Shown here piece after piece: positions 16,028 to 27,616 of a stretch of DNA of 37,916 bases. A model generated the notes under the pieces. That model was given only the letters and a program-made list of their open reading frames with translations. It did not search any database and was not told the origin of the DNA. The translations under genes were made by a program, and so were the position numbers. Positions within the stretch are counted from its first letter, which is position 1. Each line of letters begins with the position of its first letter. The DNA is from Pseudomonadota bacterium (GTDB taxonomy: Bacteria > Pseudomonadota > Gammaproteobacteria > Pseudomonadales > Pseudomonadaceae), in contig JAEYXX010000147.1 of the NCBI GenBank assembly GCA_023431055.1, forward strand, positions 1-37,916, given 5' to 3'.

Positions 16028-16867
16028 CTATTCGGGGTCGTTGCCGACCGCCGCAACGCGGCCGCGCTCGGGAAAGAACAGGCGCTGCAATTCGCTACCC
16101 GGACTTTCCGCGCGCATGAAGGCTTCGCCGACCAAGAAGGCATAGACCTCGTTGATCTCCATCAGCTCGACATCGGCGCGATTGAGAATGCCGCTCTCGG
16201 TGACCACCAAACGGTCACGCGGAACGCGCGGCAGCAGGTCGAGGGTGGTTTCCAGGCTGACATCGAAGGAGTGCAGGTTGCGGTTGTTGATCCCCACCAG
16301 CGGCGTGTCCAGGGTATTCAGCGCCCGCTCCAGCTCGGCGCCATCATGCACCTCGACCAGTACATCGAGGCCGACATCCTTGGCCACTGACGCCAATTCG
16401 GCCATGCGCACGTCATCCAGGCAGGACACGATCAGCAGCACGCAGTCGGCACCCAGCGCGCGGGCCTCGACGATCTGGTACGGATCGACCATGAAATCCT
16501 TGCGGATTACCGGCAGCGCGCAGGCCGCGCGGGCCTGCTGCAGGTACTGGTCGGCGCCCTGGAAGAAATCGATATCGGTGAGCACCGACAGGCAGGTGGC
16601 ACCGCCTGCCTCGTAGCTGCGGGCGATATCCGCCGGCACGAAGTCGGCGCGCAGCACTCCCTTGCTCGGCGACGCCTTCTTGATCTCGGCAATCACCGCT
16701 GGCTGCTTGCGCGCTGCTTGCTCCAGCAGGGCGCGAGCAAAGCCACGCGGCGCATCGGCGGCGCGGGCGGCTGCTTCGAGTTCGGCGAGGCTGACCTGGG
16801 CGCGGCGCGCGGCAACCTCCTCGAACTTACGGGCGACGATCTTCTCCAGTACGGTTGGTACGCTCAC
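16028..16867 (-). CDS. trpC: Indole-3-glycerol-phosphate synthase
   Basis: TrpC closes the indole ring from CdRP with loss of CO2 and water, the fourth step of tryptophan synthesis. The 279-residue TIM-barrel protein shows [14 protein letters not shown] (catalytic lysine), [34 protein letters not shown] and VTESGI. It begins at a GTG overlapping the trpD stop by 4 bases. It is monofunctional (no fused TrpF), as usual in Pseudomonas. Last gene of trpGDC. Confidence 0.97.
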
Positions 16868-17910
16868 CCTTCGTTCTCCTGTTTGAATACCGCGGTAAAG
16901 GACACCAGCTCTTCCAGCTTCTCGCGCGCCAGCCCAGTGTGCAGGGCGTCATGCGCCAGCTGGATACCTTCGCGCAGACTGCTGGCATGGTCGGCAGCAT
17001 AGAGCGCGGCGCCAGCATTGAGCACGATCATGTCGGCCGCCTTCTGGCCGTTATCGGTCTTGCGTCGGCCGAGGGCATCGCGGATCAGCTCCAGCGACTG
17101 TTCAGCGTTGTCGACGGTCAGGCCGATGAGGCTCTGGCTCTTGATGCCGAAATCCTCGGGCTGGATACGGTACTCGCTGACCTTGCCGTCCTTGAGCTCG
17201 GCGACGAAGGTCGGTGCTGCCAGGCTGATCTCGTCCAGACCGTCCTGCGCATGCACCACCAGCACGTGCTCGCTGCCCAGGCGCTGCAGCACTTCGGCCA
17301 TCGGCCGGCACAGCGCCTGGCTGAACACGCCGATGACCTGATGCCTGGCGCCTGCCGGATTGGTCATCGGGCCGAGCATATTGAAGATGGTGCGCAGGCC
17401 CAGCTCGCGGCGCGGGCCGATGGCATGCTTCATCGCGCCGTGATGAGACGGGGCGAACATGAAGCCGACACCAACGCTTTCGACGCAACGCGCCACCTGC
17501 TCGGGCTTGAGCCCCAGGTAGACGCCAGCCGCCTCCAGCAGATCGGCGCTGCCGCTCTTGCCGGACACCGCACGGTTACCGTGCTTGGCCACCTTGCCAC
17601 CGGCCGCCGCGACGACGAAGGCCGCAGCAGTGGAGACGTTGAAGATGTTCATGCCGTCGCCGCCGGTGCCGCAGGTATCGACCAGACGCTCGGCGTCGAT
17701 CACCACTGGTGCAGCCAGTTCACGCATGACGCTGGCCGCGCCGACGATCTCGTCGATGGTCTCGCTCTTCATGCGCATGCCCATGAGGAAGGCGCCGATC
17801 TGCGCGTCGGTGCATTGGCCGGTCATGATTTCGCGCATGACCGCCTGCATTTCCTCGGTGGTCAGATCGAGCTGAGCGACGATGCGGTTGAGGGCTTCCT
17901 TGATATTCAT
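16864..17910 (-). CDS. trpD: Anthranilate phosphoribosyltransferase
   Basis: TrpD joins anthranilate to PRPP. The 348-residue protein has the PRPP-binding [17 protein letters not shown] (about residues 80-96), [19 protein letters not shown] and the anthranilate-site [13 protein letters not shown]. Starts and stops overlap its neighbours by 4 bases on both sides, so trpG, trpD and trpC are translationally coupled. It is a separate gene, not the TrpG-TrpD fusion of enteric bacteria. Confidence 0.97.
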
Positions 17911-18503
17911 GCGCGCACGCCTCCGGTCTGCTTGAGGAAGTTGGCAAACAGTTCGTGGCCCTGCTCGGTGAGGATGGACTCGGGGTGGAACTGCACGCCC
18001 TCGACGTTCAGGGTCTTGTGGCGCAAGCCCATGATCTCGTCGACCGAGCCGTCTTCATGCTGGGTCCAGGCGGTGATTTCCAGGCAATCCGGCAGGGTCT
18101 CGCGCTTGACCACCAGGGAATGATAGCGGGTCACGGTGAGCGGGTTATTGAGGCCGGCGAACACGCCCTTGTCCTCATGGAACACCGGGCTGGTCTTGCC
18201 GTGCATCACCTGGCGCGCGCGCACCACATCACCGCCGTAGGCCTGGCCGATGCTCTGGTGGCCGAGGCAGACGCCGAGGATCGGCAGCTTGCCGGCGAAA
18301 TGCAGAATGGCCTCGATGGACACGCCCGCTTCGGTCGGCGTACAGGGGCCGGGAGAGACGACGATGCGCTCGGGCTTGAGTGCTTCGATTTCAGCGATGG
18401 TCAGTTCGTCGTTGCGAATCACGTGCACGTCAGCGCCCAGCTCACCCAGGTACTGCACGACGTTGTAGGTAAAGGAATCGTAGTTGTCGATCATCAGCAG
18501 CAT
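17907..18503 (-). CDS. trpG: Anthranilate synthase glutamine amidotransferase subunit
   Basis: TrpG supplies ammonia from glutamine to TrpE. The 198-residue class I amidotransferase has the oxyanion motif VVSPGPCTP, the nucleophile in [15 protein letters not shown] (about Cys79) and the His-Glu pair in [10 protein letters not shown] (about 170-172). First structural gene of trpGDC, it lies 131 bases downstream of a Trp-rich leader peptide. Its partner trpE is 7.6 kb away across the catabolic island. Confidence 0.97.
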
Positions 18504-18774: not shown

Positions 18775-19437
18775 TCAACGGGCGCGACGCGCATAGGCAG
18801 CCAGCACGGTGCGCTCGGACTGCACCAGGTAAGCATCAAGCGCCTGCGCAGCCTCTTGAGCCTGACCGGCTTCGAGGCGCTGCAGAATGGCCGCATTCAT
18901 GTCGATGTAGGGCGAATGGAGGAACTCGGCATCGTTGAGCAGACCGAAGGCCAGGCGCAGCTCGGCGGACAGATGGGCATAGAAGGTATTGAGGCGCTCA
19001 CTGTCGGCCAGTTCGACGATGGCGGCATGAAACGCCATGTTGGCGGTCCCCGCGCCGCTCCAGTCCTGCGCCTCACGACAACGTTCGGCTGCGGCCACGG
19101 CCTGTGCCATACGCTGCACGGCGGGATGCTTGGGGTAGGCCTGAGCCAGTGCCTGACATTCGATGAACCGGCGCACCCGGTATATATCGATGATCGAGGC
19201 CATATCCGGTACGGCGACGAACACGCCACGATTGGGCTCGTGCTTGAGCAGACCTTCCTGGGTCAGCACACGGAAGGCCTCACGCAGGGTATTGCGGGAA
19301 ATATCCAGGCTTTCACTCAGCGCCGCCTCTGACAGGCGCTGACCAGGCACCAGCTCACCCTCGACCAGCTTGCGGCGGATTTCGGCCGTCACTGTTTCAC
19401 CAAGAGTGCGCGAGTTGTCGGGCATGTCTTTGCTCAT
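18775..19437 (-). CDS. GntR family transcriptional regulator, FCD (FadR) subfamily
   Basis: The 220-residue protein has an N-terminal winged helix (TVTAEIRRKLVEGELVPGQRLSEAALSESLDISRNTLREAFRVL; about 14-57, motif within) and a C-terminal helical FCD effector domain with the expected metal/ligand residues (IDIYRVRRFIE, ANMAFHAAIVELADSERL). FCD regulators usually sense organic acids or amino acids. It is divergent from the permease-pxpA operon, and a perfect match to the FCD operator lies between them, so it likely represses that operon until substrate appears. Start chosen at ATG 19437 (MSKDMPDNSR) with GGATGGAA just upstream; ATG 19449 and 19425 are alternatives. Confidence 0.87.
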   Translation of the reverse strand: MSKDMPDNSRTLGETVTAEIRRKLVEGELVPGQRLSEAALSESLDISRNTLREAFRVLTQEGLLKHEPNRGVFVAVPDMASIIDIYRVRRFIECQALAQAYPKHPAVQRMAQAVAAAERCREAQDWSGAGTANMAFHAAIVELADSERLNTFYAHLSAELRLAFGLLNDAEFLHSPYIDMNAAILQRLEAGQAQEAAQALDAYLVQSERTVLAAYARRAR

Positions 19438-19598
19438 CGTTCCATCCATTGTGCTTGGTGGGGCTGCGGGGCTCGCAGATGCTCCATGAGTCCGCCCCCT
19501 GAAGCAAGCGCTGCCGGGTGTCACCAGTTGCACAACAATGGAACACAAGCGGGTAATTAGGTAACAAAACAGTGCATATTGATGAACCATAAAATATT

Positions 19599-19613
19599 TA
19601 TTGTTGAACAATA
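19599..19613. promoter_or_regulatory. Operator palindrome for the FCD-type GntR regulator
   Basis: TATTGTTGAACAATA is a perfect 7+1+7 palindrome. Its core, 19601-19611, fits the FCD-family consensus TNGTNNNACNA exactly. A further half-site-like CAACAAT lies at 19628-19634. It sits in an AT-rich stretch between the regulator and the permease gene, overlapping a promoter candidate. Binding by the neighbouring regulator is inferred from family and position. Confidence 0.7.
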
Positions 19614-19629: not shown

Positions 19630-19712
19630 ACAATGCAGCCCGGCTCGAAGGGTATTGGCACAGTGATTGCCTTGTCATGGACAACAGATCCTCCCCCATC
19701 CAGGAGCGCCCC

Positions 19713-20948
19713 ATGCAAGCCCAGACCACCGCTGACTTCGCCCGCTCACGCCGCTCATCATTGATCGCGGCCATTTTCCTGATGGCCACTTCGGCCATTG
19801 GCCCCGGCTTCATCACCCAGACCGCCACCTTCACAGCAACCATGGGCGCCGCCTTTGCCTTCGGCATCCTCGCTTCGATCCTCATCGACTTCGTGGTCCA
19901 GCTGAACGTCTGGCGTATCGTCACTCTGACCCGCATGCGCGCCTCGGATCTGGCCAACGCGGCAATTCCCGGTAGCGGCTATCTGCTGGCGGTGCTGGTG
20001 ATCTTCGGCGGGCTGGTGTTCAACGTCGGCAACATCGCTGGTGCCGGCCTGGGCCTGAATGCGCTGATGGGGCTGGATCCGAAATGGGGCGGCGGCCTCA
20101 GTGCGCTCGTCGCCATCGGTATCTTCCTGTCCAAGCGCGCAGGCATCGCTGTTGATCGTCTGATCGTGGTGCTGGGCCTGCTGATGATCCTGCTCACCCT
20201 GTTCGTCGCCATCGCCTCGAATCCACCACTGGGCGAAGCGTTGCGCCAGACCGTGTGGCCGGACACGATCAACTTCGCCACCATCACCACCATCGTCGGC
20301 GGCACCGTGGGCGGCTATATCACCTACGCCGGCGCACACCGCCTGCTGGATCGCGGCCTGGTCGGCAAGGAGCATGTGAAGGAAGTTACCAAGGCAGCGC
20401 TGAGCGGTATCGCGGTCACCGGCGTAATGCGCTACATCCTGTTCCTGGCGATTCTCGGCGTAGCCGCCAGCGGCGTGGTCATCGACACCTCAGGCCAGGG
20501 CGCCAACCCGGCGGCACAAGCCTTCCAGGCGGCGGCGGGTCAACTCGGCCTGCGCGCTTTCGGCCTGGTGCTCTGGGCTGCGGCCATCACCAGCGTGATC
20601 GGCGCGGCCTATACCTCCATGTCCTTCATCACCGCCTTCATGCCTGGCATCAGCGAACGGGGGCGTAACCGCGCCACGGTGTTGTTCATTGCTCTGTCGC
20701 TGAGCGTTTATCTCATGCTCGGCACTGCGCCAGCCGCTCTGCTGGTGTTCGCTGGCGGCTTCAACGGCCTGATTCTGCCGATTGGCCTGAGCATCTTCAT
20801 CTACGTCGGCTGGCGTCGATCCGACCTGATGGGCGGCTACCACTATCCACGCTGGTTGCTGATCCTGGGTGCCGTTACCTGCATCCTGACCTGGTACATG
20901 GCGGTCAAATCGGTCGGCCCGATTTTCGCCTTCCTCAACGTAGCCTGA
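19713..20948 (+). CDS. NRAMP-like permease without metal-binding motifs (YcsG-type)
   Basis: The 411-residue membrane protein has about 11 helices of the NRAMP/LeuT-like fold. The TM1 segment reads [17 protein letters not shown] where true NRAMPs have the DPGN metal motif, and the TM6 segment reads [19 protein letters not shown] where they have MPH. All four usual Mn/Fe ligands are therefore absent, so automatic naming as a divalent metal transporter would mislead. B. subtilis ycsG, in the same kind of cluster (ycsFGI-kipIAR), is the likely counterpart. Position first in the pxp operon suggests uptake of the substrate, perhaps 5-oxoproline; this is inference. An AGGAG site lies 6 bases before ATG 19713; an earlier ATG at 19677 is less likely. 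Confidence 0.8.
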
Positions 20949-20964: not shown

Positions 20965-21735
20965 ATGCCAACCATCGACCTCAACAGCGACCTGGGCGAG
21001 AGCTTCGGCCAGTGGTGCATGGGCGACGATGCCGCAATGCTCGACATCGTCACCAGCGCCAACGTCGCCTGTGGTTTCCACGCCGGCGACCCGGCCGGCA
21101 TCCTGCGCACCCTCAGGGCCGCAGCGGCCAAGGGCGTGACCATCGGCGCCCATGTCGCCTACCCGGACCTGGTCGGCTTCGGCCGCCGCAACATGGATAT
21201 CGCCAGCGACGAGCTGACTGCCGACGTGATCTACCAGATCGGCGCCCTGCAGGCCCTGGCCACTGCCGCCGGTACATCGGTGCGCTACGTGAAGCCCCAT
21301 GGCGCGCTGTACAACACCATCGCCCACGACACACGCCAGGCTCTGGCGGTGATCGAGGCGATCCGCGCCGTCGATGCACGCCTGGTGCTGGTCGCCCTGG
21401 CCGGCTCGCCGCTGATCGAGCTGGCGCGCCAAGAAGGCCTGGCCTGCATCGCCGAAGCCTTTGCCGACCGCGCTTACACGCCAACGGGCGCCTTGGTGTC
21501 GCGCCGCGAGCCAGGTGCCGTGCTGCACGACGCCGAGCAGGTGGCCCAACGCATGCTGCGCCTGGTGCAGACCGGTGAGATCGAAGCCATCGACGGCAGC
21601 GTCACCCGCATCGAAGCCGACTCCATCTGCGTGCACGGCGACAGCCCCGGTGCCATCCAGATGGCCCGCGAGGTGCGCCAGTTGCTGGAGCAGTCCGGCG
21701 TATCCCTGCAATCCTTCGCCGGAGCCGCCCGATGA
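20965..21735 (+). CDS. pxpA: 5-oxoprolinase subunit A (LamB/YcsF family)
   Basis: PxpA is the hydrolase-like subunit of the ATP-dependent bacterial 5-oxoprolinase PxpABC, which opens 5-oxoproline to glutamate. The 256-residue protein shows the family signatures: [12 protein letters not shown] at the start, [13 protein letters not shown] (about 31-43), [24 protein letters not shown] (about 110) and [14 protein letters not shown]. An AGGAG site precedes the ATG. It overlaps the DUF1445 gene by 4 bases. Whether the true substrate is 5-oxoproline or another lactam/amide cannot be read from the sequence, given the added biotin carboxylase. Confidence 0.92.
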
Positions 21736-22538
21736 ACGCCATCCAACGCGCCCAGCAGGCGGCCATTGCCGCCGCCCGCCAGGCCCGCGCCGAGTACCGC
21801 AACGGCCGCGTCGCGCCTACGGCCGGTATCGCGCCGGGCATGACCCAGGCCAACCTGATCGCCCTGCCCCGCGACTGGGCCTATGACTTTCTGCTCTACG
21901 CCCAGCGCAACCCCAAGGCCTGCCCGGTGCTCGACGTGAGTGACGCCGGCAGCCCGCACACGGTACTGGCCGAAGGCGCCGACCTGCGCACCGACCTGCC
22001 GCTGTACCGCATCTGGCGTGATGGCAAGCTGGCCGAGGAAGTCAGCGACGCTACCGCCGCCTGGGCGGAACACGCCGACATGGTGACCTTCCTGATCGGC
22101 TGCAGCTTCACCTTCGAGACCGGCCTGCAGGAAGCCGGCATCGAAGTGCGGCATATCACCGATGGCTGCAACGTGCCGATGTACCGCACCAACCGCGCCT
22201 GCCGCCCGGCAGGCCGCCTGCATGGCGAGATGGTGGTGTCGATGCGGCCGATCCCGGCGGATCGCGTCGCCGAGGCGGCCGGTATTTCCGGGCGCTATCC
22301 CTCGGTGCACGGCGCTCCAGTGCATATCGGCGAGCCGGATCGCCTCGGCATCAAAGACCTGCACAAGCCGGATTTCGGCGACGCGGTGCGTATCGAGCCC
22401 GGCGAGGTGCCGGTGTTCTGGGCCTGCGGCGTGACGCCCCAGGCGGCGGTCATGGCCTCCGGCGTCCCCTTCGCCATCACCCACTCGCCGGGCCATATGT
22501 TCATCACCGACGTGCCTGACAGCACGTACCACGTATAG
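21732..22538 (+). CDS. DUF1445 putative hydro-lyase (YcsI-type)
   Basis: The 268-residue protein belongs to the DUF1445 (D-glutamate cyclase-like/putative hydro-lyase) family: [86 protein letters not shown] and [13 protein letters not shown] mammalian relative, DGLUCY, interconverts D-glutamate and 5-oxo-D-proline, which makes its place beside pxpA telling: it may provide or remove the D-isomer of oxoproline. The start overlaps the pxpA stop (ATGA). Its exact reaction here is inferred. Confidence 0.85.
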
Positions 22539-22547
22539 GACAAGCCC

Positions 22548-24161
22548 GTGCGTTTTCTCCCCGCCAACCTCGATACGTTGCTCGTCGAACTGGCCGATCT
22601 CGACGAAACCCTGGCGCTGTTCGACGCGCTGCAGGCCGAGCCTATCGCCGGGGTCGAGGAAATCGTCCCGGCGGCGCGGACGCTGCTGATCCAGTACCGG
22701 CCCAGCGCTATCGACCGCCAGGCGTTGATCGACGATCTCGCCGGCCGCGACCTGAGCCGGCGCAGCACCCGCGACAGCTGCCGCGTGGAAATCCCCGTGC
22801 ACTACAACGGCGAGGACCTCGACGAGGTCGCCGGACTGCTCGGCATCAGCCGTGAAGAAGTGGTGCGCCGCCACACCAGCGCCGATTACGAAGTGGCCTT
22901 CTGCGGCTTCGCCCCCGGCTTCGGCTACCTGACCGGCGGTGCCGACTTCCAGGTGCCGCGCCGGCAGACGCCGCGCACGCGCATTCCCGCTGGCGCCGTA
23001 GCCCTGGCTGGCAACTTCAGCGGCATCTACCCCAAAGCCAGCCCCGGTGGCTGGCAGATCATCGGCGTCACGCCGTTGCAGATGTGGGATTTGCAGCGCG
23101 ACGAGCCGGCTCTGCTGCGCCCTGGCTACAAGGTGCGCTTTCAGGATGCCGGCCCGCTGCCGGCAGGTGGCCTGCCCGCCCATAAACACACGACAGCCAG
23201 CAAGCCGCCGGCCGGTGCCCATCTTGAAATTCTCAGCCCCGGCCTGCAAACAGTGCTGCAGGACCTTGGCCGCGCAGGTCATACCGACCAGGGCGTGTCG
23301 ATGTCCGGCGCCCTGGATCGCGGTGCCCTACGCGCGGCCAATCGCACAGTGGGCAATGACTCGGCCTGCGCCTGCCTGGAAGTGGTGCTCGGCGGTCTGA
23401 GCTTCCTCTGCCACGGTCACACGCTCATCGCCATTACCGGCGCGCAAACGCCCATCACCGTCACCACCGCCAGCGGCCTGCAATGGCAGCCCGGCAATTA
23501 CCAGCCCATCGAACTAGACGACGGCGACCGCGTCAGCCTCGGCGCGCCCCAGGCCGGGCTGCGCAGTTACCTGGCGATTCGCGGCGGCTTTGCCGTGGCG
23601 CCGGTGCTGGGCAGCCTGTCCTACGACAGCCTGGCCCAGGTCGGCCCGCCGCCGCTGAAAGCTGGAGACAGGCTGGGTTTCGAGACAATCAGCGCCGGTA
23701 GCAGCGTATCGACGAGTGAAGGCCCGGCTTTCGAGCTGCCCACCGCCAAGGACATCATCACTCTGGATGTGGTGATGGGGCCGCGCAGCGACTGGTTCAC
23801 CCCGGCGGCCATCGAACGCCTGAGCAGCCAGCTGTGGCGCGTCACCGCGCAATCCAACCGGGTCGGCATTCGCCTGGAAGGCGAGGTGCCGCTGGAGCGC
23901 TGCAAGCATGCCGAGTTGCCCAGCGAAGGCACCTCACTGGGCGCCATTCAGGTGCCTGCCAGCGGCCAACCGGTGCTGTTTCTCGCCGACCATCCGCTGA
24001 CCGGCGGCTACCCGGTGATCGCCGCCGTGGCCAACCACCATCTGGATCTGGCCGGGCAAATCCCGATCAACGCGCAGATTCGCTTCAACCCCGTCGAGGC
24101 GTTCGCCGAGCTCAAGCCCGACGTCTCCCCTCTCACTGCCGATGCGAAGAACCCATCATGA
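22548..24161 (+). CDS. Fused PxpB-PxpC / KipI-KipA carboxyltransferase-domain protein
   Basis: The 537-residue protein joins two parts usually separate in E. coli and B. subtilis. Residues about 1-210 are PxpB/KipI-like ([18 protein letters not shown] ... [13 protein letters not shown] ... [14 protein letters not shown]). Residues about 225-530 are PxpC/KipA-like ([20 protein letters not shown] ... [18 protein letters not shown] ... [18 protein letters not shown] ... [18 protein letters not shown]). The same two domains form the carboxyltransferase of urea carboxylase. Start is a GTG with AGGA upstream, 9 bases after DUF1445; the stop overlaps the biotin carboxylase start (ATGA). With PxpA it should make a 5-oxoprolinase; with the next gene it could act as a biotin-dependent carboxyltransferase. 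Confidence 0.9.
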
Positions 24162-25888
24162 AAAAAGTCCTGATCGCCAACCGTGGTGAAATCGCCGTGC
24201 GCATCGCCCGCGCCTGCCGTGATTACGGTGTGGCCTCCGTGGCCGTGTATGCCAATGCCGATATCGACGCCCTGCATGTGCGCCACGCCGACGAAGCCTA
24301 CGCCCTGGATGGCGAGCGCCCGGCCGACACCTACCTGAATATCGATAAGCTGCTGGCCATCGCCAAGCGTGCCGGCGCCGATGCCGTGCACCCCGGCTAC
24401 GGTTTTCTCTCCGAGCGCGCCGACTTCGCCCGTGCCGTGCAAGGCGCCGGGCTGATCTGGATCGGCCCGAACCCGGAAACAATCGACGTGCTCGGCGACA
24501 AGGTCGAGGCGCGCAAACTCGCCCAGCAGGTCGGCGCACCCCTGGTGGCCGGCACCCCCGGCCCGGTGCAGAGCGCCGCCGAAGTGCTGGCCTTCGCCGA
24601 GCAACATGGCCTGCCCATCGCCATCAAGGCCGCATTCGGCGGTGGCGGGCGCGGCATGAAGGTCGCCTGGCGCATGGACGAAGTGGCCGAGCTCTATGCT
24701 TCGGCGGTGCGTGAAGCCGAGGCCGCTTTCGGGCGCGGCGAATGCTTCGTCGAGCAGTTCCTCGACCGCCCAAGGCATATCGAAGCGCAGGTCATCGCCG
24801 ACACTCACGGCAATGTGGTGGTGGTCGGCACCCGCGACTGCTCGTTGCAACGGCGCAACCAGAAACTGGTGGAGGAAGCGCCAGCGCCCTTTATCAGCGA
24901 CGAGCAGCGCCAGCGTATTCATCAGTCCGCTCATGATATTTGTGCCAAAGCCGGCTATGTCGGCGCCGGCACCGTGGAATACCTGCTTAGCGCCGATGGC
25001 ACCCTGTCGTTCCTGGAGGTGAACACCCGCCTGCAGGTCGAGCACCCGGTCACCGAGGAAACCGCTGGGGTCGACCTGGTGATCGAACAGCTGCGCGTCG
25101 CCGACGGCCTGCCACTGTCATTCCGTGAAACGCCGACGCCGCGCGGCCACAGCTTCGAGTTTCGTATCAACGCCGAAGACGCCGGCAAGGGCTTTCTGCC
25201 CACCCCCGGCAATATCAGCGAATTCCGCGCCCCGAGCGGCCCCGGCGTGCGCCTGGACAGCGGCGTGGAAAGCGGCTCCAGTGTGCCTGGCACCTTCGAC
25301 TCGATGATGGCCAAGCTGATCGTCACCGGCGCCACCCGCGAACAGGCCATCGCCCGCGCGCGCCGCGCCCTGACCGAGTTCCAGATCGAGGGCATCGCCT
25401 CGGTGCTGCCCTTCCATCGCGCGGTGATGGATCACGACGATTTCACCGGTGGGCACTTCGCCGTGCACACGCGCTGGATCGAAACCGACTTCGCCGAGCA
25501 GATCACCCTGGCACCGCGCACCTTGCCGGCTGCTGGCGATGCGGTGCTGCGCACCTTTATCGAGATCGATGGCAAGCGCCATGAACTGGGCCTGCCCAGC
25601 GCTCTGCTGCAAGGTCTGGCGCCATTGGGCGGTAACGTCCAGCCTGCATCCCAGGCTGCAGCGCCTGCTGCCGAAGAAGGCCTGGTCAGCGCACCGATCT
25701 CCGGCAACCTGCATGCCTGGCTGGTCGAGGATGGCGCTCAAGTCAAAGCCGGCGACGTGATCGCGGTGATGGAGGCGATGAAGATGGAAACCCAGGTCAC
25801 CGCGCCGACGGACGGCAACCTGCGCATCCGTGAACAGGCCGGCGCTTATCTGGACGCCGGGGCAACGTTGGCCAAGCTGGAAGGCTGA
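24158..25888 (+). CDS. Biotin carboxylase with C-terminal biotinyl domain (AccC-like, accessory)
   Basis: The 576-residue protein has the complete biotin carboxylase core: [39 protein letters not shown], the glycine loop [14 protein letters not shown] (about 164-177), [38 protein letters not shown] and [10 protein letters not shown] linker of about 60 residues leads to a BCCP domain with biotin lysine Lys542 in [11 protein letters not shown]. Housekeeping AccC in Pseudomonas is shorter (about 450) and uses a separate AccB, so this is a dedicated carboxylase. Tight coupling to the KipI-KipA protein gives, as a pair, the parts list of urea carboxylase. The acceptor is unknown. Last gene of the island operon. 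Confidence 0.9.
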
Positions 25889-26095: not shown

Positions 26096-27574
26096 TCAGA
26101 GCGAGCCCTGCTCCGCCAGGGCCACGGCCTTGAACATGGCGCGGCGCTTGTTCAGGGTTTCTTCCCACTCAAGGGCGGGCACCGAGTCGGCGACGATGCC
26201 GGCGCCGGCCTGCACGTGCAGCTCGCCGTCCTTGATCACCGCGGTGCGGATGGCGATGGCGGTGTCCATGTTGCCGTTCCAGGCGTAGTAACCGACCGCA
26301 CCGCCGTATACGCCGCGCTTGACCGGCTCCAGCTCGTCGATGATTTCCATCGCGCGAATCTTCGGAGCACCGGACAGCGTGCCGGCCGGCAGGATGGCGC
26401 GCAGGGCGTCCATCGAAGTCAGGCCTTTTTTCAGCTCGCCGGTGACATTGGAGACGATGTGCATGACGTTGGAGTAGCGCTCGATGACCATCTTCTCGGT
26501 CAGTTTCACCGAGCCAACTTCCGAGACGCGGCCCGTATCGTTACGGCCCAGGTCGATCAGCATCAGGTGCTCGGCGATTTCCTTGGCGTCGGACAGCAGG
26601 TCTTCTTCCAGCGCCTTGTCCGCCTCCTCGCTGGCGCCGCGCGGGCGGGTGCCGGCGATGGGGCGCACGGTGACCAGGTTGTCTTCGACGCGCACCAGCA
26701 CCTCCGGCGAGCTGCCGACCACATGGAAATCGCCGAAGTTGAAGAAGTACATGTACGGCGTCGGGTTGATGCAGCGCAGCGCGCGGTACAGGTCGATGGG
26801 CGCGGCCTTGAAGGGGATCGACATGCGCTGGGAAATCACCACCTGCATGCAGTCGCCGGCCAGGATGTAATCCTTGATCGAATCCACCGCTCGCTCGTAA
26901 TCCTCACGGCTAAAGCTGGAGCGGAACGCTGGCTCTTCGCCCGCCGGCTTGTTCAGGTCCACACCCAGGCGCGGCGTGAACGGCTGACGCAACTTGTGCA
27001 GGATATCCTGCAACTGCTGCTGGCCACGGGCGAAGGCATCGGCTTCGGCTGGGTCGGCCAGCACGATGGCGTGCATCTTGCCGGCCAGGTTATCGAACAC
27101 CACCACGGCGTCGGAGACGTTGAGCAGGATATCCGGCGTGCCCAGCGCGTCAGGGTTCACCCCGGCGGCCAGCTTGGGCTCGACGTAACGCACGCTGTCA
27201 TAGGCGAAGTAACCGACCAGGCCGCCATTGAAGCGCGGCAAGCCGGCGATGGTCGGCACCTTGTAACGCGCCTTGAACTGCTCGACGAAGGCCAGCGGGT
27301 CGGCACATTCGTGGCGCTCGATTTCGACACCGTCGGTGGTGATCACCACGTCATGACCGTGCACACGCAGCACGGTGCGCGCCGGCAGGCCGATGATCGA
27401 GTAACGACCCCATTTCTCGCCGCCCTGCACGGACTCCAGCAGGTAGGAGTTGGGCGCATCGGCCAGTTTCAGGTAGATCGACAGCGGCGTGTCGAAGTCG
27501 GCGATGGTTTCGCAGGCAAGCGGAATGCGGTTGTAGCCTTCAGCGGCTAAACGCAGAAATTCTTCATGGGTCAT
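26096..27574 (-). CDS. trpE: Anthranilate synthase component I
   Basis: TrpE converts chorismate to anthranilate with ammonia from TrpG; it is the feedback-controlled first step of the pathway. The 492-residue protein has the regulatory tryptophan-binding segment [18 protein letters not shown] (about 45-62), and the chorismate-binding core: [79 protein letters not shown] and [22 protein letters not shown]. Start at ATG 27574 ([10 protein letters not shown]) with GAGG 7 bases upstream; ATG 27586 would put the ribosome site inside the gene. It has its own leader peptide and promoter and is apart from gph. Confidence 0.97.
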
Positions 27575-27616
27575 GATCAGCCTCATGGCTCGGGGTAAAC
27601 AGTCGGGTGCAAACGG

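Follow-up and report, generated by a model that had tools for sequence, protein, structure and literature searches.

An operon of PxpABC type with a dedicated biotin carboxylase, a candidate biotin-dependent 5-oxoprolinase

Introduction

The PxpABC 5-oxoprolinase, which Niehaus is said in secondary reports to have described in 2017, brings together PxpA and the carboxyltransferase (CT)-type domains CT_C_D and CT_A_B. We analyzed a stretch of 37,916 nucleotides (here called the window, at its full length) from contig JAEYXX010000147.1 of a bacterium of the family Pseudomonadaceae (GenBank assembly GCA_023431055.1). The window carries the same three domains in one operon; unlike in PxpABC, PxpB and PxpC are fused (PxpBC), and a dedicated protein composed of a biotin carboxylase (BC) and a biotinyl domain (BCCP), here termed BC-BCCP, is added. 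This operon probably encodes a biotin-dependent 5-oxoprolinase under 5-oxoproline control, a reading to which we assign a probability of about 0.68. We found no explanation, in the literature examined, for the coupling of ATP to lactam opening by PxpABC. The literature searched likewise contained no source that ties a biotin partner to the fused PxpBC, for which some sources already use the name "5-oxoprolinase subunit B/C family protein."

Control of pxpTABC in Corynebacterium glutamicum lies with PxpR, a divergently encoded GntR repressor that binds 5-oxoproline; PxpT, of NRAMP type, transports 5-oxoproline (PMC13274462, accessible portion). The operon in the window resembles that system in its divergent GntR gene, its NRAMP-type transporter, its PxpA, PxpB, and PxpC, and an identical 13-bp operator core, whereas pxpB and pxpC are separate in C. 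glutamicum and the accessible portion of that report describes neither a BC-BCCP gene nor a D-glutamate cyclase gene in the operon. An AccA3-type BC-BCCP and the PxpB/PxpC homologs MSMEG_0435-MSMEG_0436 occur together in one solved complex (PDB 9YX5); according to the part of the entry that was available, however, AccA3 belongs there to a long-chain acyl-CoA carboxylase complex, whereas the window encodes the pair together and its PxpBC is fused. Urea carboxylase and urea amidolyase (K. lactis 3VA7; 5I8I) differ in being single chains of more than 1,200 residues with a BC-CT-BCCP order and a BC of another clade. Finally, CapAB and OplAB also open lactams in an ATP-dependent, bicarbonate-requiring manner, with a carboxylated lactim as one proposed intermediate (PMC8453981 and PMC11033972, both in part), but these enzymes belong to the hydantoinase/oxoprolinase family, which is not similar to PxpABC, and the mechanisms proposed in the available parts of these sources do not involve biotin.

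Results

The operon and its divergent regulator are laid out as follows (positions are those of the window).

18775..19449, minus strand: GntR/FCD-family regulator, PxpR-like (PF00392 and PF07729), divergent from the operon
19600..19612, no strand assigned: predicted PxpR operator ATTGTTGAACAAT, within a 15-bp palindrome (19599-19613)
19677..20948, plus strand: NRAMP-family transporter, PxpT/YcsG-like, 423 amino acids (PF01566, E 3e-21), the first gene of the operon
20965..21735, plus strand: PxpA, LamB/YcsF family, 256 amino acids, 26.8 kDa (PF03746, E 5e-103)
21732..22538, plus strand: D-glutamate-cyclase-family protein, 268 amino acids (PF07286, E 1e-69), between PxpA and PxpBC
22548..24161, plus strand: PxpB-PxpC (KipI-KipA) fusion, 537 amino acids, 56.8 kDa, GTG start, with CT_C_D (PF02682) at residues 1-190 and CT_A_B (PF02626) at residues 249-515
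24158..25888, plus strand: BC-BCCP (biotin carboxylase and biotinyl domain), AccA3-like, 576 amino acids, 61.3 kDa (PF00289, PF02786, PF02785, and PF00364), with an EAMKM motif

A sequence-only reading of this DNA had placed PxpA, the fused PxpB-PxpC, and BC-BCCP in one operon, and the Pfam domains and coordinates bore this out. The sizes that it gave for the last two proteins (576 and 537 residues) and the overlap of their genes were also correct, the start of the BC-BCCP gene overlapping the end of the PxpBC gene by 4 nt. The genes that it named were right, but it had missed the D-glutamate-cyclase-family gene (21732-22538), the NRAMP-type transporter, and the divergent GntR regulator. The start of this regulator was assigned by hand; the open frame extends to 19623, and the stretch scanned reached 19506, an arbitrary cut with no start codon.

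Pfam recognized no ATP-binding domain in PxpB-PxpC, both parts of which have the carboxyltransferase fold. The structure matches of the fusion were MSMEG_0435-0436 and TTHA0988, AccA3 was the closest PDB match of BC-BCCP, and the better of two PDB matches of the cyclase-family protein was 2PIF (UPF0317 protein PSPTO_5379). Neither an AccD-type CT domain (beta subunit) nor Hydantoinase_A or Hydantoinase_B domains were found among the six genes of the operon region to which the scan was limited.

To assess how regularly the BC accompanies PxpBC, we used the best 80 (L001-L080) of 159 confirmed fused-PxpBC relatives from a scan of species genomes. These loci were mostly from Pseudomonas, and hence not independent; the others came from Rhizobium and its relatives, Photorhabdus, Xenorhabdus, Achromobacter, and one unclassified gammaproteobacterium. 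By PxpBC, the closest contig was from Pseudomonas oleovorans DSM 1045 (96% identity). A BC lay immediately downstream of PxpBC in all 80 loci, and a BCCP was present in 79, the exception (L016) being a locus that stops at a contig end. PxpA was found in 80/80 loci, the GntR regulator in 77/80, the transporter in 75/80, and the cyclase in 67/80. Given that the BC was kept throughout and the cyclase only in 67 loci, the BC is a core component and the cyclase an optional one.

A broader sample of Pseudomonadota was also prepared, in which CT_A_B was sought in 398 genomes and was present in 162. From the matches listed, among which the lowest-scoring ones did not appear, 98 loci other than urea carboxylases were picked by hand and annotated with hidden Markov models built from these same loci. 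Five further loci (L092-L096), fetched with 1.5-kb flanks, were left uncounted; one of them (L093) is of the window's type. A BC was located within about 6 kb in 34 of the 98 loci, including L157 and L160, which are cut by contig ends, and L143, where the BC is on the opposite strand. Three layouts could be distinguished in a hand-read table. The window's type accounted for 15 loci, a BC near a split PxpB and PxpC was seen in 19, and the remaining 64 had no BC within about 6 kb. BC and BCCP were fused in all 15 loci of the window's type, and PxpB and PxpC were fused in 14 of them and in separate frames in L191. None of these 14 one-frame fusions, in this sample, lacked a BC. At a chance rate of 1.8% per locus, a hand estimate from six BC genes in a 4.7-Mb genome, 34 of 98 corresponds to a binomial P of about 4e-34, a value to be taken as a guide only because related loci are not independent. 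BC adjacency to PxpBC is far above chance.

On a tree of CT sequences, window-type PxpBC was monophyletic (25/25; support, 1.0). BC linkage changed at least 7 times on this tree, compared with at least 31 times in 500 label shuffles (12 urea carboxylases scored as linked), so the linkage is inherited, with several gains or losses. All trees were single FastTree runs, and the BC tree omitted L157 and L160. Locus L161 lacks a BC, while that of its close relative L160 is cut by the contig end. A lone BCCP near L187 was considered as a BC linkage and rejected, as it sits, by hand reading, in a 608-residue frame resembling pyruvate carboxylase or oxaloacetate decarboxylase. One contig carries a split BC-linked set (L151) and a fused BC-linked set (L220) about 18 kb apart, and genome G071 holds a BC-linked set (L150) alongside a BC-free set (L218).

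The BC of the window's type has kept its residues. In the 95 loci of this type, 12 BC positions (numbered after Escherichia coli AccC) were intact in 95, and the biotinylation motif was present in 94. The nearest genome (G001) has six BCs; the copy in the operon is 98% identical to that of the window, and the other five show 44 to 47% identity. On the BC tree, the window's type grouped with mycobacterial AccA3 (69% identity; support, 0.946; one AccA3 in the tree), with a support of 0.288 for the placement of AccA3 as sister to, or nested in, the window's type.

The 19 loci with a split PxpB and PxpC (L143-L216) form a second BC-linked group, with a separate BC that mostly falls in a clade of its own. 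Of the 17 BCs of this group in the tree, 13 made up that clade, and the other four were placed near the housekeeping-type BC of G001. BC-linked PxpABC thus seems to have recruited different carboxylases. The BC positions, aligned for 18 of the 19 loci, were intact save for one gap and one substitution. A simple pattern detected the biotinylation motif in 9/19 loci and did not find it in 7/19, and a BCCP was not found in 3/19.

Regarding the substrate, the predicted operator (19600-19612) is located in the gap between the GntR and transporter genes; read on the opposite strand, it matches the core of the tested C. glutamicum site agattgttcaacaatct exactly over 13 bp. The tested PxpR operator contains ATTGTTCAACAAT (PMC13274462, accessible portion). 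With up to one mismatch allowed, about 0.01 matches are expected per window. Among the related loci with a divergent GntR gene (n = 77), the core was exact in 51 and had one mismatch in 24; in the Pseudomonadota sample (n = 12), the corresponding numbers were 8 and 3, the stretch searched at L177, L178, L189, and L204 being 1.7 to 3.3 kb. The random-window null used for these locus counts itself includes real sites. An alternative GntR-type palindrome, TTGTATACAA, was looked for and not found. We predict 5-oxoproline-responsive control through a PxpR-type operator.

The transporter has the motif GPGF in place of DPGN, the metal-binding motif of NRAMP metal carriers, and the same is true of the NRAMPs beside PxpABC at L187, L188, and L199. 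An NRAMP-family carrier without the metal-binding motif fits a switch from metal to 5-oxoproline. The D-glutamate-cyclase-family gene also adjoins BC-free PxpABC at L170, L175, L176, L202, and L219, and its distribution hints that the pathway involves D-glutamate or 5-oxo-D-proline. Bacillus subtilis also has ycsG and the cyclase-family gene ycsI.

The distribution of PxpA within Pseudomonas provided a further line of evidence. PxpA was present in all 149 sampled genomes. The window's type, called at ≥50% identity over nearly the whole length, was present in 21 of these, with BC-BCCP adjacent in 21/21; one copy (G477) has a stop inside PxpBC. It was the only PxpA in 11 of the 21 genomes, and each of the 128 genomes without it had a PxpA belonging to some other set (Fisher P, 3e-11). 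Nine of the 11 genomes with a sole PxpA also lacked Hydantoinase_B, which represents the other ATP-dependent oxoprolinase family. The most economical explanation is a replacement of ordinary PxpABC by the window's type.

Four lines of evidence, namely, the operator, the transporter, the cyclase partner, and the displacement of other PxpA genes, agree in making 5-oxoproline the likely substrate, and the different substrate that the sequence-only reading had offered as one option is disfavored. That reading had also proposed a survey of how often BC-BCCP and fused pxpBC co-occur; the BC was adjacent at 80/80 relatives, 14/14 fused Pseudomonadota loci, and 21/21 Pseudomonas genomes. The operon is a variant of PxpABC with an added biotin partner, and this variant is real and well conserved.

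By hand reading, trpC/D/G-type genes (16028-18503) flank the operon on one side and a trpE-type gene (26096-27586) on the other. TrpE and TrpG were both within the fetched stretch at 10 of the 80 related loci, as well as at L203, L209, and L214. R/F-type pyocins occupy the same trp interval in Pseudomonas aeruginosa. The interval may be an insertion hot spot.

Discussion

By sequence, a complete BC-BCCP, a CT-fold PxpBC, a PxpA, and a PxpR-like operator are present together in one operon. In the scheme that we propose, the BC domain would form carboxybiotin on the BCCP arm from ATP and bicarbonate, a step suggested by the intact BC residues. The BCCP arm would then swing to PxpBC, where CO2 would be moved onto the lactam of 5-oxoproline, most simply onto the ring nitrogen, as urea carboxylase does to urea; the fold homology with urea carboxylase and the 9YX5 complex point to this transfer. 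PxpA, as its family suggests, would hydrolyze the activated ring, and the resulting N-carboxyglutamate would shed CO2 to yield glutamate. The net cost would be one ATP, with bicarbonate acting catalytically. The opening of lactams by CapAB and OplAB, which are unrelated enzymes that depend on bicarbonate, offers a precedent. We infer the whole of this scheme, step by step, from sequence and by analogy. Of the biotin-dependent lactam or amide opening put forward by the sequence-only reading, the coupling of BC-BCCP to PxpBC is strongly supported by the conservation of their linkage, by the intact residues, and by the structure in which homologs are bound together, and the activity is a prediction.

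Pseudomonas putida has a two-component 5-oxoprolinase, reportedly described by Seddon, Li, and Meister in the 1980s, who, judging from a title and secondary reports, are said to have argued for a phosphorylated intermediate. Component A is reported, second hand, to be a hexamer of 64- plus 51-kDa dimers with 5-oxoproline-dependent ATPase activity, and component B (82 kDa) to be needed for ring opening (PMC8453981, in part). Another source, also available in part, gives 75 and 63 kDa, describes the sequence as not reported, and assumes a HyuAB-type enzyme (PMC6061476). The corresponding masses in the window are 61.3 and 56.8 kDa for BC-BCCP and PxpBC and 80.5 kDa for three PxpA chains, and they agree roughly, within about 12%, with the masses given for components A and B. 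Substrate-dependent ATPase activity without the ring-opening partner would be conceivable for an enzyme that forms carboxybiotin. Perhaps, then, the window's type is the P. putida enzyme, which we offer as a lead only.

Several observations weigh against a biotin-dependent 5-oxoprolinase. For the P. putida enzyme, secondary accounts, available in part, report phosphorylation of 5-oxoproline and no need for bicarbonate. C. glutamicum needs pxpTABC to grow on 5-oxoproline, and the accessible portion of the report describes no biotin gene (PMC13274462). A second-hand report credits co-purified PxpB and PxpC with the hydrolysis of ATP (PMC8453981, in part), which would make a BC unnecessary. PxpBC occurs without a nearby BC in 64 of the 98 sampled loci and in 2 of the 15 loci that make up the clade of split, BC-linked enzymes (L148 and L155), and 10 of the 21 Pseudomonas genomes keep another PxpA besides that of the window's type, leaving room for a second substrate. 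A comparison of CT positions that the window's type might share with urea carboxylase and not with BC-free PxpBC gave 4 positions in favor, 4 against, and 5 pointing neither way, and this residue signature, which did not separate the window's type from BC-free enzymes, was dropped. The NCBIfam equivalog cutoffs were missed for PxpB (133 versus 145.55 bits) and PxpC (179 versus 500), and the two proteins that carry the BC, CT, and BCCP domains scored 169.7 and 516.5 bits against the urea carboxylase equivalog TIGR02712, also below its cutoff (1303.85). Cutoffs were reached for the PxpA subfamily model (387 versus 226) and for TIGR00724, a broader domain model (252.8 versus 230.2). Either biotin is dispensable and the BC-linked form uses another chemistry, or the BC-free forms borrow a carboxylase.

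The second PxpA in 10 of the 21 genomes also bears on the idea that the complex is biotin dependent but serves mainly a different compound, be it an amide, a lactam, or a urea-like molecule, whose carboxylated product PxpA would open. The known tested substrates of carboxylases of this fold are urea or guanidine, which by homology favors such a compound, and the two sets of G071 (L150 and L218) make separate jobs possible. We nevertheless consider another main substrate unlikely in view of the exact PxpR-type core, the PxpT-type transporter, the cyclase partner in 67/80 loci, and the genomes (11/21) in which the window's type is the sole PxpA. Alternatively, BC-BCCP might be an independent AccA3-like acyl-CoA carboxylase subunit that merely shares the operon, with PxpABC working alone. 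AccA3, its closest PDB match, does serve acyl-CoA carboxylases, and both the 64/98 loci without an adjacent BC and the second-hand report of ATP hydrolysis by PxpB-PxpC (PMC8453981, in part) are consistent with this. An independent subunit is, however, hard to reconcile with the absence of an AccD-type CT domain from the six scanned genes, with a linkage that holds in 80/80 loci across genera while transporter and cyclase vary, and with the presence of homologous partners in one complex in the available part of 9YX5, and we judge it quite improbable.

That complex could be read in yet another way, because the homologs are bound there, as far as the available part of the entry goes, to a long-chain acyl-CoA carboxylase complex and not to a dedicated one. 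BC-BCCP might accordingly be only a regulator or scaffold on PxpBC that ties glutamate recovery to the state of the carboxylase, and the binding seen in 9YX5 might mean the same. A pure regulator would need neither intact BC positions (95/95) nor a dedicated gene beside PxpBC, and we regard this role as very improbable indeed.

Beyond the biotin-dependent 5-oxoprolinase proposed for this operon, PxpABC could at root be a biotin system, in which carboxybiotin is made at the expense of ATP, PxpBC carboxylates, and PxpA opens the ring. The window's type would have its own BC-BCCP, the second group would use a separate BC and BCCP, and the BC-free forms may borrow the housekeeping carboxylase in trans, a possibility suggested by the mycobacterial homologs bound to AccA3. 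The enzyme described from P. putida in the 1980s would then be of the window's type. We put this wider proposal forward as a doubtful one.

With a dedicated BC and with an operator and a transporter of 5-oxoproline type in a single operon, one reconstitution could test the carboxylation hypothesis. If the operon does encode a biotin-dependent 5-oxoprolinase, it would represent a new way of spending ATP on opening the ring of 5-oxoproline, a waste product, via an enzyme that uses biotin (vitamin B7). An orphan enzyme that is decades old could then be assigned its genes, and the opening of amide rings for damage repair and nutrient use would be added to the roles of biotin enzymes.

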